From: Gymnodinialimonas phycosphaerae
GTDB lineage: Bacteria; Pseudomonadota; Alphaproteobacteria; Rhodobacterales; Rhodobacteraceae
NCBI RefSeq assembly: GCF_019195455.1
Contig: NZ_JAIMBW010000001.1
Coordinates: 4,243,849-4,307,848 of the forward strand
DNA: 64,000 nt
Reading direction: 5' to 3'
Shown: piece by piece, positions 59,606 through 63,403 of the stretch
Layout: the number at the start of each line of letters is the position of its first letter
Position numbering within the stretch: the first letter of the stretch is position 1
Translations under genes and position numbers: made by a program
Notes under the pieces: model-generated
Database searches by the model: none
What the model was told of the DNA's origin: nothing
The model's input: only the letters and a program-made list of their open reading frames with translations

Positions 59606-60507
59606 TCGAGACCGGGCTGCATGTCATCTACAACACGGGCTCCCGCCTGCATTATGCAGTCGACGTCCAAGACACCTATGCCGGGATTGCCGTGTTCGAT
59701 CCCTGTGAGATCGGCCAAGGGCTGCGCGATGGCATCGAGCCACTGCCATGGGCAGACTTAGCGGCAGCGCTTGAGACACCTTATGACCGCTCGAATGCCG
59801 CAGGCTTTGTCGATATGCGCGGCAACGGCGTGTTCATTCCAGATTTGCCCGGATTGACCCATGGGGCGATCTATAGGGGGCGTTCTTATGTGTTTCTCGA
59901 CGGGATGATCGGCCATGATGAAATCACTGATTACGCGTTGATTGATATCATGACCAACGAAGCGGGATTCCCGCTTCCTTGGCGTAACCGCTTTGCGCAG
60001 TCTGCGCGCGAAAAAGTTGACTTTTCCTTCCGGCATAGGGCCCGAACGCAGTGCTCCAACGCGCTGGTGATCTTCATGCCAATCGCGGGACCCCTGTCCA
60101 GCGCGCGTATCGAAGTCCTCTGTGAGCAGGAGCCAATCCTACTGAATGGTACGACCGTCGCTGGCCGGATCGACGACGCGACCATCCCCAACGATGGTCA
60201 GTGGTTCAAGCAGTTCTATTTCCATACGGTGGCGACCGAAACGGTGACCGTTCCTGCGGGAGGGCGGGCTCATGTGCCGATCGCGCTGCGCTGGAATATC
60301 GATGGCGCGCCATGCGCACACGCGCTGGCGCTGAAGCTCGATAGTGACGCCGGCTATCTGCCGAAACGGCGGCTAATGACTGACATGAATGGGGCGGGCA
60401 CCTTTGCAGTCGAGGCGCTGGGGCTCAACCCGGGCGACCAAATCGCGGTCAAGATCAACAGCGAGCATTACACCGCGATCGGCAAGATCATCCTGGAGGT
60501 GGTGTGA
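59602..60507 (+). CDS. Fibre-module protein of unknown function
   Basis: A 301-residue protein starting at GTG 59602 (AGGAG six bases upstream, GTGA overlap with the fibre stop). The N-terminal half (LHVIYNTGSRLHYAVDVQDTYAGIAVFD) and the C-terminal beta-sandwich-like part (YFHTVATETVTVPAGGRAHVPIALRWNIDG) suggest a structural protein, perhaps with an Ig-like end. No family recognised. It lies between the fibres and the modification cassette and may be the structural partner of the modified peptide. Confidence 0.6.
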   Translation: MIETGLHVIYNTGSRLHYAVDVQDTYAGIAVFDPCEIGQGLRDGIEPLPWADLAAALETPYDRSNAAGFVDMRGNGVFIPDLPGLTHGAIYRGRSYVFLDGMIGHDEITDYALIDIMTNEAGFPLPWRNRFAQSAREKVDFSFRHRARTQCSNALVIFMPIAGPLSSARIEVLCEQEPILLNGTTVAGRIDDATIPNDGQWFKQFYFHTVATETVTVPAGGRAHVPIALRWNIDGAPCAHALALKLDSDAGYLPKRRLMTDMNGAGTFAVEALGLNPGDQIAVKINSEHYTAIGKIILEVV

Positions 60508-61247
60508 TGGAAATCAACACCACAACTGAGTTCCAGCTGATCTATCCGGCCTTCGTTATGCACAAGCACTGGGAGATGCCCGAGGGATTCAATGACCGCC
60601 TGTACGCATTGGCGGCCGAGGACGCGGTGGCGAACCGCATTCAAGACGCGGACGACGGCCGAAATGTTGGAGACCAGACCAACCATCTCGGGCATCTGCG
60701 CCACAACTTCCTGGTGGATCGGCAGGACCCGGCTATCGCTGTTTTGGCGCAGATGGTGGCGACCGGGGTGCGCGAATATCTGCAGTTGGCTTACGGATAC
60801 GACCACACCGGCGAGATCGCCATGATGTCGGACACCTTCTGGCAAAGGCGGGCCGCCCGAGAAAACGTTGGCATCAACGCCCACACCCATATCCAGACTG
60901 ACATCATCTGCACTTATTATCCGCGGGTCGTGCTCGACGCGGATTGTCCCAATACCTCGCTCCATCGTGGCTCGGTGCGCTTCTACGATCCAGCCAATGT
61001 CGGCAAGCGGCTTTGGCCCTCTAACAACCCAGACGCTTATGTCGGCGGCTGGTATGCGGTCGAGCCTCGAACGGGCTCCATGCTCGTCTTCGAGGGCCAT
61101 GTGCCCCACGACAGCACCTATTTCGAAGGCGAGGAGCGGATGTGCATCCCCGTCCTCTGTTCGCTCAAACTACCCAATTCGCACTGCAAGGCCGGTCTCT
61201 CCGAGATCCTGGCCCATCAGGAGCAAGGAGGCAGCCATGGCCTATAA
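60507..61247 (+). CDS. 2OG-Fe(II) oxygenase, TIGR02466-like (cassette oxygenase 1)
   Basis: A 246-residue protein resembling the TIGR02466 family of putative 2OG-Fe(II) oxygenases. The iron-binding region is INAHTHIQTDIICTYYPRV (His126, His128 and Asp132 are candidates), then SVRFYDP, and the distal part GSMLVFEGHVPHDSTYFEGEERMCIPVLCSL with His201 and the 2OG-binding Arg211. It probably hydroxylates an amino-acid side chain. The ATG at 60507 is seven bases after GGAGG; a GTG one codon earlier is also possible. The Cys-rich gene starts 11 bases before its end. Confidence 0.78.
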   Translation: MEINTTTEFQLIYPAFVMHKHWEMPEGFNDRLYALAAEDAVANRIQDADDGRNVGDQTNHLGHLRHNFLVDRQDPAIAVLAQMVATGVREYLQLAYGYDHTGEIAMMSDTFWQRRAARENVGINAHTHIQTDIICTYYPRVVLDADCPNTSLHRGSVRFYDPANVGKRLWPSNNPDAYVGGWYAVEPRTGSMLVFEGHVPHDSTYFEGEERMCIPVLCSLKLPNSHCKAGLSEILAHQEQGGSHGL

Positions 61248-61535: not shown

Positions 61536-62168
61536 ATGGAGATCCGCAGCACGAGTATTGACCTTTGGCCGACGCGGGTCGCGTTCTTCGAAACACCGGT
61601 CGACTGGATGGTGAATAGGCAACTGGCCGACGAGGCCATCGCCGCCGTCGAAGCGACCGGAAGCGGGTCGATGGCCAATGCAGCCAAGCGCCGTGTGCGT
61701 GGCATACTTGAGAAAAGCAACGCAGGTCATTCCATAAAAGCCCATCTCTTCGCCTGCGCGCGTGCTGTCCTTGGCCCTTGGGCCAAGTATCTCGATCCCG
61801 ACCATTGCGAAAACCGCGCATTGGTCATCGAGCCCGGTGGCTTCATCTCCACCCACAAGGATAGCCGCGAGGGGGATCTGACCTGCGTCCACTTCCTGAC
61901 CGGCAGTGGGTCGGGCCAGCCGGTGAATAGCGTGGGCACTCCGCGCTTCGTGATCGAGGACCCATCGCGCTACTTCGACGAGGGACGACTGCCCTTCGAA
62001 TCCCGGCATGGCTTCTCGGTTAATCCGCGACCGGGGCTTTCCGTGTTCTTTCCCTCCCACATTCCCCACAACCAGCACCCCTGTGAGGGGAGCGCGCCCC
62101 ATGTTCAGGTGGTCGCGAACTTCCGTGTTAACCTGCCCACCGCCATTGAAGAAAGGCTGTTTGACTGA
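61536..62168 (+). CDS. 2OG-Fe(II) oxygenase with HxD motif (cassette oxygenase 2)
   Basis: A 210-residue protein distinct from cassette oxygenase 1. The facial triad is His107-Lys-Asp109 in GGFISTHKDSREGD and a distal His (178 or 181) in FFPSHIPHNQHPCEG. ALVIEPGGF and VQVVANFRVNL are typical flanking strands. It belongs to the aspartyl/asparaginyl or prolyl hydroxylase-like superfamily by layout. The ATG lies two bases after the stop of the Cys-rich gene, so the two are translated together. Asn residues next to Cys in the precursor are plausible targets (inference). Confidence 0.75.
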   Translation: MEIRSTSIDLWPTRVAFFETPVDWMVNRQLADEAIAAVEATGSGSMANAAKRRVRGILEKSNAGHSIKAHLFACARAVLGPWAKYLDPDHCENRALVIEPGGFISTHKDSREGDLTCVHFLTGSGSGQPVNSVGTPRFVIEDPSRYFDEGRLPFESRHGFSVNPRPGLSVFFPSHIPHNQHPCEGSAPHVQVVANFRVNLPTAIEERLFD

Positions 62169-63403
62169 TGTGGTTCGATCTGACGCTGGAAGCGCGTGAC
62201 GGCAGCCGCCATCAAATGCGCTACAACCCGCACACCTCCGAATGTGAGGGGCTGCCGCTGCCGGTCGAACCTGGCATCTTCGCGCCGGTGCCACGCGTAG
62301 CCAAAGACAAGCCCCTCGGAAAATCCCGCGCTCCCCGCATCCTGAAAATCCAACTCGGACTCTCGTGCAACTATGCCTGCAGCTATTGCAACCAGGCCTT
62401 CCAGATTACGGATGCCACAGTCTCGAAACTGGCGGATGTCGAACACTTCCTGATCGAGCTCGACGGCTGGATCACCGACGCGCCGGAGACGATCGAGCTC
62501 TGGGGTGGGGAGCCGTTTCTTTACTGGGCCAAAATCAAGCGGCTGATCCCCGCGCTGGCGGAGCGCTTCCCGGCGGCGCGCTTCTCGATCATCACCAACA
62601 GCTCGCTCCTCGACCGAGAAAAGCTCGACTTCATCGCGGCCCACGATATCGCCATCACGATTTCGCATGACGGGCCCGGTCAGCATCTGCGCGGGCCGGA
62701 TCCGTTCGACGATCCTGTCAAGAGTCACTGGATCCAAACCCTTTTGGCTGAGCGCCCCGAAAAGACCGGTTTCAATGCGGTTCTGACGCGCCAGCATCAC
62801 GACCTTCGGGCGCTCAAGGCATGGTTCGCCGAAAAGGTCGGGCCGGACATCTTCGTTGGGCTCGAGGGTGTCGTGAATGTCTATGATGCGGCGACCGCCA
62901 TCGGAACGGGACGGTTTGAGCCCTCGGAGCTGAACAGCTTAACGCGGTCGATCTTCGAGGCGCTGGCAGAGGACCCCAACGCCTTTGGCCTCGGGGAGCG
63001 CATCAACGAGTTCTATGCTGCTATCCAGCGCCGCAGGCCCATCGATGCCCTCGGCCAAAAATGCGGAATGGACAGCCCCGACGCCATTGCCGTTGACCTG
63101 CGCGGGAACGTCATGACCTGTCAGAACACCGGGGCTAAGGGAGCGCACAAGATCGGCCACGTCGCCGACTTCGACGCCATCGCGCTCGACACCGCGACGC
63201 ATTTTGCCTTCCGAGATGAATGCATGTCATGCCCCGTCGTTCAGCTCTGCAAGGGATCTTGCATGTTCCTCGAAGGGGAGTTCTTCAAGCAGAGCTGCGC
63301 CAACGAGTTCGCCTTCAATATGGGGATCATGATGGCCGCCGTCTGGCATTTGACGGGGATGGTGGTGGTTGGGCTGGAAGGTGGCAGATTGCCGACCCCG
63401 TAA
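62168..63403 (+). CDS. Radical SAM/SPASM peptide-modifying enzyme
   Basis: A 411-residue radical SAM protein. The cluster motif CNYACSYC has Cys67, Cys71 and Cys74; WGGEP (112-116) binds SAM; the barrel continues to about residue 290. A full seven-Cys SPASM domain follows: C299, C318, C352, C355, C361, C365 and C377, including the CMSCPVVQLCKGSC segment. SPASM enzymes carry two auxiliary Fe-S clusters and commonly modify ribosomal peptides (thioether or C-C crosslinks) or proteins. It overlaps the previous stop (TGATG), ending the operon. The hydrophobic C-terminus (MMAAVWHLTGMVVVGL) is unusual. Confidence 0.9.
   Translation: MWFDLTLEARDGSRHQMRYNPHTSECEGLPLPVEPGIFAPVPRVAKDKPLGKSRAPRILKIQLGLSCNYACSYCNQAFQITDATVSKLADVEHFLIELDGWITDAPETIELWGGEPFLYWAKIKRLIPALAERFPAARFSIITNSSLLDREKLDFIAAHDIAITISHDGPGQHLRGPDPFDDPVKSHWIQTLLAERPEKTGFNAVLTRQHHDLRALKAWFAEKVGPDIFVGLEGVVNVYDAATAIGTGRFEPSELNSLTRSIFEALAEDPNAFGLGERINEFYAAIQRRRPIDALGQKCGMDSPDAIAVDLRGNVMTCQNTGAKGAHKIGHVADFDAIALDTATHFAFRDECMSCPVVQLCKGSCMFLEGEFFKQSCANEFAFNMGIMMAAVWHLTGMVVVGLEGGRLPTP

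Follow-up and report, generated by a model that had tools for sequence, protein, structure and literature searches.

Widespread pairing in phages of a Cys-x-Cys tract, usually terminal in a fibre-like protein, with the gene of a radical-SAM enzyme predicted to modify it

The window (the whole stretch of DNA that was analysed, 64,000 nucleotides) carries a tailed prophage that ends in the cassette described here. Its head, tail and endolysin-like genes (38653..56499; like all features given below, on the + strand) were recognised by PHROG matches, which were obtained for nine of the ten late-region proteins scanned (terminase, portal, protease, capsid, tape measure, J-like fibre and others). 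Behind them lies a tail-fibre gene (58646..59605) encoding collagen repeats (PF01391, 62.1 bits) and a C-terminal S74 intramolecular-chaperone domain (PF13884, 57.8 bits); both Pfam scores exceed the cut-offs, and there are many PHROG tail-fibre matches. This gene is translationally coupled to the next one, overlapping by 4 nt the gene of a 301-amino-acid protein (UPF, 59602..60507), which in turn overlaps by 1 nt the gene of a 2OG-Fe(II) oxygenase-like protein (Oxy1). The four ORFs encoding Oxy1, a 98-residue Cys-rich protein (the CxC protein), a second oxygenase (Oxy2) and a radical-SAM (rSAM) enzyme were confirmed in direct succession behind the fibre genes. An earlier, sequence-only reading had the cassette as four genes right after the fibre genes and missed the 301-amino-acid partner between the S74 fibre gene and Oxy1. 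The continuous overlap that it claimed for the four genes was found for Oxy1 and the Cys-rich gene (11 nt) and for Oxy2 and the rSAM gene (1 nt); the Cys-rich gene and Oxy2 overlap, by 7 nt, only if Oxy2 starts with GTG, and are otherwise separated by a 2-nt gap. Gene context agreed with its placing of a Cys-rich substrate candidate beside rSAM and 2OG enzymes in a phage late region. As it had also stated, no exporter or protease was recognised among the cassette genes in the ORF list, Pfam or PHROG, nor was an immunity gene. No RNA family was found at gathering score in the 26-64 kb part of the window.

The order of the four genes was kept in all 25 viral loci (L006-L030) whose rSAM is 65-96% identical to that of the window, so the cassette is more than a chance arrangement. 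Four loci of this type were counted in Thalassobacter stenotrophicus CECT 5294, of which one is truncated at a contig end. UPF is the commonest neighbour of this rSAM family: members of its family were counted beside 53 of 80 rSAM representatives and in 64 of 102 loci, some of which had been selected by the CxC pattern. UPF matched nothing in PHROG and reached only a sub-threshold score in Pfam, and a PDB search with its profile returned no relative.

The rSAM enzyme (62168..63403), the predicted maturase of the tract described below, scored above the cut-offs of PF04055 (37.8 bits vs 29.5) and of the SPASM domain model TIGR04085 (31.1 vs 27), and matched phrog_1802 with E 4e-51. When 25 divergent members of the family were aligned, C67 and C71 of the core motif C67xxxC71xxC74 (CxxxCxxC, 62366..62389) were invariant and C74 was present in 24, being absent in L032. 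All seven Cys of the SPASM region (C299, C318, C352, C355, C361, C365 and C377; 63062..63298) were invariant in the 25 sequences, and the description of the enzyme as a complete seven-Cys SPASM protein was correct.

None of the maturase subfamily models reached its cut-off with this enzyme. The best NCBIfam match was PapB (NF047865, 66.1 bits vs 340), and the SCIFF maturase model TIGR03974 gave 31.8 vs 425. Ranthipeptides, as a chemical class, are defined by a thioether that links Cys to a carbon other than the alpha carbon. The locus resembles ranthipeptide and SCIFF maturation (PapB/freyrasin, NxxcB/NxxcA, six-Cys SCIFF maturases) in that a SPASM rSAM gene adjoins a small Cys-rich substrate with Asn or Asp near Cys. 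It differs in that the phage substrates are fibre-type proteins with a C-terminal CxC tract, the other partner genes are not the same, the scores lie far below the subfamily cut-offs and neither leader cleavage nor an exporter was seen. In the His-Xaa-Ser system (HxsA-D) a substrate with an alternating-residue repeat is likewise served by SPASM rSAM enzymes, and the HxsB model was among the matches; however, its score was 47.3 vs 370, Cys takes the place of His and Ser here, and the His-Xaa-Ser system is not tied to fibres. QhpD, a SPASM rSAM enzyme, cross-links a functional protein, a subunit of quinohemoprotein amine dehydrogenase, and not a free peptide. Its model was also matched, although with 46.8 bits vs 453, and its target is an enzyme subunit and not a part of a virion. 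PHROG 1802 is listed as 'radical SAM domain-containing protein', a domain name to which the present analysis adds the link with CxC fibre proteins. C-terminal tips that need maturation are found in S74-chaperone and HxH-iron fibres, and an S74 fibre gene lies two genes upstream of Oxy1, but radical-SAM maturation of such tips was not found described in the literature searched.

The CxC protein (61237..61533) is the predicted substrate, and 123 homologues of it were found. Its Cys residues (61, 63, 67, 92, 94, 96 and 98) lie in the last 39% of the chain, residues 61-98, and are not confined to the C-terminal third as had been stated. In an alignment of 65 homologues N91, C92, C94, C96 and C98, which make up or border the terminal tract C92-N-C94-N-C96-R-C98 (61510..61530), were invariant, whereas C61, C63 and C67 (61417..61437) were not kept as a set and appear to be optional. 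C.C.C.C was retained within the final 20 residues in 109 of the 120 homologues listed; of the remaining 11, P0090 carries Tyr at one of the Cys positions, and the tract is missing from ten, several of these apparently frame-broken or truncated. The refuting condition set by the sequence-only reading, absence of the Cys-rich gene or random Cys positions where the enzymes persist, thus turned out mostly in favour of that reading, the Cys-rich gene being present in 25/25 close loci. Locus L095 is an intact-looking exception: it has an rSAM matching residues 29-411, with neither a CxCxC ORF nor an oxygenase, and shares its contig with a complete cassette (L096). Over the 25 close loci, mean identity of the CxC protein was 40% in the hypervariable middle (residues 35-59; 61339..61413), compared with 80% for residues 1-34 and 89% for residues 91-98. 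In three of these loci (L011, L015 and L016) the middle is replaced, and the rSAM there is still 88-89% identical.

The N-terminal domain of the CxC protein is common to tandem small proteins, some of which lack the tract. The 98-residue protein had no match in Pfam or PHROG and no homologue in solved virions, and its weak predicted model (pLDDT 64) had no Foldseek match in the viral library at E 0.001. A tblastn search of the phage collection gave one chance-level match, and the best other match in its own genome (E 0.037) contained stops. Its site behind the fibre genes and the fibre-type relatives of its tract favour a fibre or tip protein. With a conserved N-terminus, a hypervariable or swapped middle and a conserved C-terminal NCxCxCxC, the CxC protein resembles a small virion protein of fibre type more than a free peptide.

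The assignment of Oxy1 (60507..61247) as 2OG-Fe(II) oxygenase-like rests on sequence profiles: phrog_81 (E 1.8e-8), PF13759 (23.5 bits, below the cut-off of 27) and TIGR02466 (29.1 vs 62.5). Oxy2 (61536..62168 from ATG, or from GTG at 61527) matched phrog_81 with E 2.9e-5 and PF13759 with 14.8 bits, also below 27. The predicted fold of Oxy2 (pLDDT 87), a double-stranded beta-helix, confirmed it as a 2OG-Fe(II) oxygenase; the top Foldseek matches of the model included the prolyl-4-hydroxylases P. putida P4H and PHD2 as well as PolD, with E values of about 1e-6 to 1e-5, although identity over the alignments was only 14-19%. H107 and H178 of Oxy2, taken as iron ligands, were invariant in 24 aligned rows. 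The two oxygenases had been called unrelated; since iterated profiles begun from either one recovered both, they are related. Oxygenases were detected in only 35 of 66 dereplicated rSAM loci and in none of the other 31, so they look like accessories, and the idea that they form the core of the gene set was rejected.

The association between rSAM gene and tract was counted in both directions. The forward count covered these 66 loci, 14 of 80 representatives having been excluded for a short upstream flank. A CxCxC ORF was present on the same strand in 57 of the 66, compared with 8 of the 66 for the opposite strand; nine loci had no CxCxC ORF nearby. Of the 57 same-strand ORFs, 44 stop within 15 residues of the tract and 8 continue into a Hint (autoprocessing) domain. 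Asn, Ala or Asp occupied 89% of the 262 tract positions between Cys (N 135, A 60, D 37). In the reverse scan, viral contigs were searched for DNA encoding CNCNCNC or CNCDCNC, and all 120 stretches were examined. An rSAM gene was found with 33/37 CNCNCNC stretches lying in frame in an ORF and with 0/22 of those out of frame; the corresponding numbers for CNCDCNC were 44/47 and 2/22, and both of the latter exceptions were real tracts cut by a contig edge. By carrier clusters, rSAM accompanied 24 of 41. Seven in-frame tracts with a long 3' flank lay in loci without an rSAM; a single one of these tracts is C-terminal (L294, a 50-residue ORF). A scan for CACACAC (80 of 120 stretches examined) gave rSAM in 1/30 in-frame and 0/50 other loci; we read most of these in-frame ORFs as low-complexity or antisense frames, and the scan neither supports nor refutes the link. 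At the level of sequence, rSAM genes and CxC-tract proteins were shown to occur together across phages in both search directions, and a gene set in which a CxC tract, most often at the end of a fibre-like protein, adjoins a predicted modifying rSAM gene is widespread. This wide distribution was absent from the sequence-only reading.

The carriers of the tract differ in build, and most end in it. Outside the cassette type of the window, the tract forms the end of proteins of 200-700 residues with tail-fibre matches or build. In the carrier of Achromobacter phage JWF a Hint domain (PF05203, 47.5 bits vs 32.1) begins with a Cys that follows the tract, the match running from residue 308; a second carrier scanned (L144) gave a Hint match below the cut-off (PF01079, 16.8 vs 29.7), and ten look-alike tract/Hint junctions were listed. 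Relatives mostly carry the tract at the C-terminal end of a protein of tail-fibre type, which makes a virion part a likelier product than the free RiPP pictured earlier. A free RiPP or bacteriocin was set aside as the main reading on the ground that the tract ends long fibre-type proteins in many relatives.

We favour, with a probability of roughly 60%, a virion-maturation cassette in which the rSAM enzyme is predicted to cross-link the C-terminal CxC tract of a probable tail-fibre or tip protein and the two oxygenases to hydroxylate that protein further. The predicted bonds would be thioethers that join Cys to a carbon atom of an Asn, Asp or Ala residue. Precedents for Cys-Asn and Cys-Asp thioethers, the former at N-x-x-C spacing, are given in PMC8326336. 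Three pairs within NCNCNCRC, namely N91-C94, N93-C96 and N95-C98, are spaced N-x-x-C like the residues joined by the Cys-Asn beta-thioether of NxxcA. The N-terminal domain of the CxC protein may dock on the tail, the variable middle may contact the host, and the hardened end may stabilise or anchor the tip. In some other phages, self-cleavage of a Hint domain that directly follows the tract would leave the modified end exposed. The YcaO-family proteins encoded beside rSAM relatives (L105, L106, L108, L109 and L113; none was found in L107) were counted in support of this reading. The broader proposal, that tailed phages build chemically hardened, cross-linked fibre tips with a dedicated SPASM rSAM family stitching CxC tracts at the exposed ends of fibre proteins of many builds, Hint trimming in some lineages and 2OG hydroxylases decorating, appears to us evenly balanced between right and wrong.

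The oxygenases might, however, serve the upstream collagen-like fibre by hydroxylating its prolines, only the rSAM enzyme being connected with the CxC protein. The collagen repeats two genes upstream of Oxy1, the prolyl-hydroxylase-like fold of Oxy2 and the 31 rSAM loci without a detected oxygenase fit this division of labour, but the CxC gene lies between the two oxygenase genes in all 25 close loci, and we consider it doubtful, with a real minority chance. It is unlikely that the tract is instead a metal-binding tip; in that case iron, zinc or an Fe-S cluster would be coordinated by the Cys of a fibre trimer, and the rSAM enzyme and oxygenases would shape the site by modifying nearby residues. 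Metal-binding HxH tips are known in phage tail spikes and fibres, and the alternating Cys could face the trimer axis; metal binding alone leaves the regular presence of rSAM beside the tract unexplained.

The carrier in the window is a separate small protein, as a true RiPP would be, and small ORFs lie just upstream of rSAM in three (L106, L108 and L113) of the five loci that adjoin a YcaO-family protein, itself a point for such a product, which would be modified, processed and set free on lysis to act as a toxin or a signal that benefits the lysogen. The fibre-type proteins that elsewhere end in the tract, the occurrence of the N-terminal domain in tandem small proteins without Cys tracts and the lack of a recognised exporter, protease or immunity gene in the cassette make this improbable. 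Still less probable is a sulfatase-maturase-like reaction, with tract Cys oxidised to formylglycine and the aldehydes bonding to the host surface or neighbouring chains. The JWF relative is annotated as such an enzyme and TIGR03942 aligns over residues 63-365, but with only 33.5 bits vs a cut-off of 349.45, and the tract lacks the Cys/Ser-x-Pro/Ala-x-Arg motif that sulfatase maturases target.

Under the cross-linking reading, phages would make chemically cross-linked fibre tips by a chemistry akin to that of peptide natural products. It would, as far as we know, be the first case of radical chemistry of the natural-product type on a virion. Phage radical-SAM genes are treated as metabolic or unexplained in the literature reached by search, and no paper linking phage rSAM to CxC fibre tracts was found in the open-licence literature. 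The two-way link connects one large rSAM family, apparently with short, modular and exchangeable substrates, and proteins of fibre type. It leads us to predict a covalent change on a possible host-contact part. A terminal CNCNC tract beside phrog_1802-like genes provides a simple reporter, phage JWF is a cultured example, and whether phage tails contain thioether cross-links has become a directly testable question. For a beta-thioether, Ala, present at a fifth of the tract positions, is a less fitting partner than Asn or Asp.

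Late genes of a tailed prophage occupy the right end of the window. They encode terminase, portal, head protease, capsid, tape measure, J-like central fibre and an endolysin-like protein, and nine of the ten proteins scanned had PHROG matches. The head and tail genes are followed by three fibre-type genes, the last of which encodes collagen repeats and an S74 chaperone. Downstream lie five coupled open reading frames on the forward strand: UPF, a 301-aa partner protein (59602-60507), Oxy1 (60507-61247), the 98-aa Cys-rich protein (61237-61533), Oxy2 (61536-62168) and the SPASM radical-SAM enzyme, rSAM (62168-63403), 3' of which the sequence was covered up to the window's end at 64000. 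The sequence-only reading had described the last four as a cassette; all four are present, its gene facts were correct save for small points, and the finding extends beyond those four genes.

The rSAM protein scored above the cut-offs of the Pfam radical-SAM and NCBIfam SPASM domain models and matched phrog_1802 with an E value of 4e-51. The maturase subfamily models all scored far below cut-off, PapB being the highest, and the solved relatives were distant (two chains, E values 4e-7 and 3e-4). When 25 members with 35-79% identity to the window's enzyme were aligned, 48 columns were invariant, including all seven SPASM Cys; core-motif C74 was absent from one member (L032). A 2OG oxygenase fold is predicted for Oxy2, whose model (pLDDT 87) matched solved structures including prolyl-4-hydroxylase, PolD and PHD2. 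Oxy1 is a putative 2OG oxygenase on the strength of a phrog_81 match, together with weak matches to Pfam and NCBIfam models. Profiles begun from either oxygenase retrieved both, indicating that the two, previously taken to be unrelated, are relatives. Collagen-like repeats are encoded by the fibre-type genes just 5' of the oxygenases (window 57454-59605), and the Oxy2 fold is nearest to prolyl hydroxylases; the oxygenases might hydroxylate these repeats.

A search of 5.8 billion proteins yielded 123 homologues of the 98-aa protein, of which the best 120 were counted. The pattern C.C.C.C was found within the last 20 residues in 109 of the 120; one tract Cys was replaced by Tyr in P0090, and the tract was absent from ten, several of which appear frame-broken or truncated. 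The window's protein was aligned with 64 chosen homologues, tract-less and many near-duplicate entries having been excluded by eye; N91, C92, C94, C96 and C98 were unchanged throughout, the N-terminus was nearly fixed and the middle hypervariable. When the proteins of 25 close viral loci were compared with that of the window, identity averaged 80% over residues 1-34, 40% over 35-59, 58% over 60-90 and 89% over the final eight (the tail identity of 0 for L015 is an alignment artefact), compared with 82% for Oxy1, 81% for Oxy2 and 86% for rSAM. In L011, L015 and L016 the middle is a different segment, the rSAMs being 88-89% identical. The N-terminal domain also heads small proteins of about 55-90 aa each that adjoin more distant rSAMs (L033, L034, L035, L038 and L042) and form tandem arrays, the Cys tract being present in some of them and absent from others. 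From these comparisons we read the 98-aa protein as a putative dock, an exchangeable middle and a fixed tip. Its structure model, with beta strands, was weak (pLDDT 64), something that membership of a trimer might account for.

We consider it about 75-80% likely that enzymes of the rSAM family act on the CxC tracts of fibre-type proteins. Association was tested in both directions. Starting from the enzyme, the best 80 of 151 relatives from a viral-contig scan and the best 80 of 174 from a genome scan that took the 25-row alignment as query were used, and Achromobacter phage JWF was added. All 25 of the close viral loci kept the four genes in unbroken order. A good rSAM was present in 156 loci, which were reduced to 80 by dropping those more than 85% identical, and 66 of these had at least 4.5 kb upstream. 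A same-strand CxCxC ORF was found within -4.5 to +2.5 kb of rSAM in 57 of the 66, against an opposite-strand background of 8/66. Forty-four of the 57 ORFs terminate within 15 residues of the tract, eight run on into a Hint-like domain and five continue otherwise. Nine loci had no CxCxC ORF (L105, L106, L107, L108, L113, L066, L122, L147 and L166), the first five forming one clade in the rSAM tree. In L095, a close relative outside the dereplicated set with most of an rSAM, the CxC gene was not found.

In the reciprocal approach, viral contigs were scanned for DNA encoding CNCNCNC (at least 120 stretches), with out-of-frame occurrences of that word serving as internal control. Among the 120 stretches listed, rSAM was present at 45 of 67 in-frame loci and at none of the 53 others; requiring 3.5 kb or more of 3' flank changed the figures, among the matches listed, to 33/37 and 0/22. 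A second word, CNCDCNC (118 stretches, complete listing), gave 50/71 versus 2/47, or 44/47 versus 2/22 with the same flank, and 45/65 versus 2/47 for newly fetched loci alone. The two out-of-frame exceptions were genuine tract ends cut off by the locus edge. Seven long-flank loci had an in-frame tract and no rSAM: in L294 the tract is C-terminal in a 50-aa ORF, and in L274, L297, L300, L453, L455 and L512 it lies at the start of or inside the ORF. Clustering the in-frame ORFs on the sequence preceding the tract, at 35% identity over 60%, gave 41 clusters, 24 of them with rSAM; the other 17 include short-flank loci, N-terminal tracts and doubtful ORFs. A third word, CACACAC (80 of 120 stretches), was uninformative, with rSAM at 1/30 in-frame and 0/50 other loci.

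In ten carriers of the tract (L035, two in L036, L070, L073, L086, L144, L145, L148 and L150) it leads into a Hint-like start, a few residues past the last CxC in nine and slightly further in L035. The Pfam Hint match was above cut-off in the JWF carrier, beginning at residue 308, the tract's end, and below cut-off in that of L144. Hint-class domains cut at their first Cys; such a cut would leave a mature fibre ending in the tract, like carriers whose tract is directly terminal. Presence of the tip on the mature virion is fairly probable. Another carrier type, in L074-L085 (e.g. L074 9468-10376), lies downstream and combines a Cys-rich, CxC-bearing region with a subsequent domain of about 175 residues, for which no Pfam or PHROG match was found in L074, the one scanned.

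Five CxC-less rSAM loci (L105, L106, L108, L109 and L113), which come from Ramlibacter, Variovorax and a gammaproteobacterial bin, have in common a protein of about 770 aa, with a YcaO domain in both scanned (L106 and L113) and also a nitroreductase in L106. YcaO and nitroreductase domains are known from RiPP clusters. A small ORF lies directly 5' of rSAM in L106, L108 and L113, the word DCGC being common to L108 and L113. These neighbours and small ORFs suggest that the rSAM family may act on peptides, and the five loci, from Burkholderiales and that gammaproteobacterial bin, represent a candidate RiPP cluster. As to the chemistry, the residues between tract Cys in the enzyme-first survey (n = 262) included 135 Asn, 60 Ala and 37 Asp. 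By analogy a thioether would be the first guess, with precedents in Cys-Asn of NxxcA and Cys-Asp of freyrasin (passages of PMC8326336); we give thioether bonds an even chance, the rivals being formylglycine formation and metal binding by the tract.

At E 1e-30 rSAM occurred in 4/295 sampled genomes of the host's family, its own included, a sparseness that fits a phage gene. The best 80 of 174 genome matches bore mostly Rhodobacteraceae, Rhodospirillaceae and Comamonadaceae names, with many metagenome bins. The open-licence titles and abstract openings retrieved held no link between rSAM and a CxC fibre protein, an absence that is no proof, and the term 'radical SAM' was absent from PMC9959647, which treats JWF. 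Excerpts of PMC7029224 place rSAM cassettes of pelagimyophages within the host-recognition cluster and an aspartyl/asparaginyl hydroxylase in the core; phage rSAM genes are viewed as metabolic in those of PMC10783043 and PMC9301287.

UPF was the commonest rSAM neighbour (64/102 loci, a set including pattern-selected ones; 53/80 representatives by iterated profile), and 2OG oxygenases were found in 35/66 loci. In 8/102 loci there was a further rSAM, about 340 aa long, which in L054 (6963-7979), L037, L069, L072 and L238 is flanked by the CxC fibre on one side and the main rSAM on the other; in L054 its phrog_1802 match is confined to the N-terminal core. L204 encodes a 123-aa phage protein (2383-2754, reverse strand) with a CQxCQxC-type repeat array and then a CNCDCNCNC tract, adjoining a pair of rSAM genes and another CxC protein, with kin in L448, L469 and L524. 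In L209 (3051-10408, reverse strand) four rSAM-profile matches (scores 186, 58, 56 and 49) adjoin a 79-aa CxC protein and tail-type proteins.
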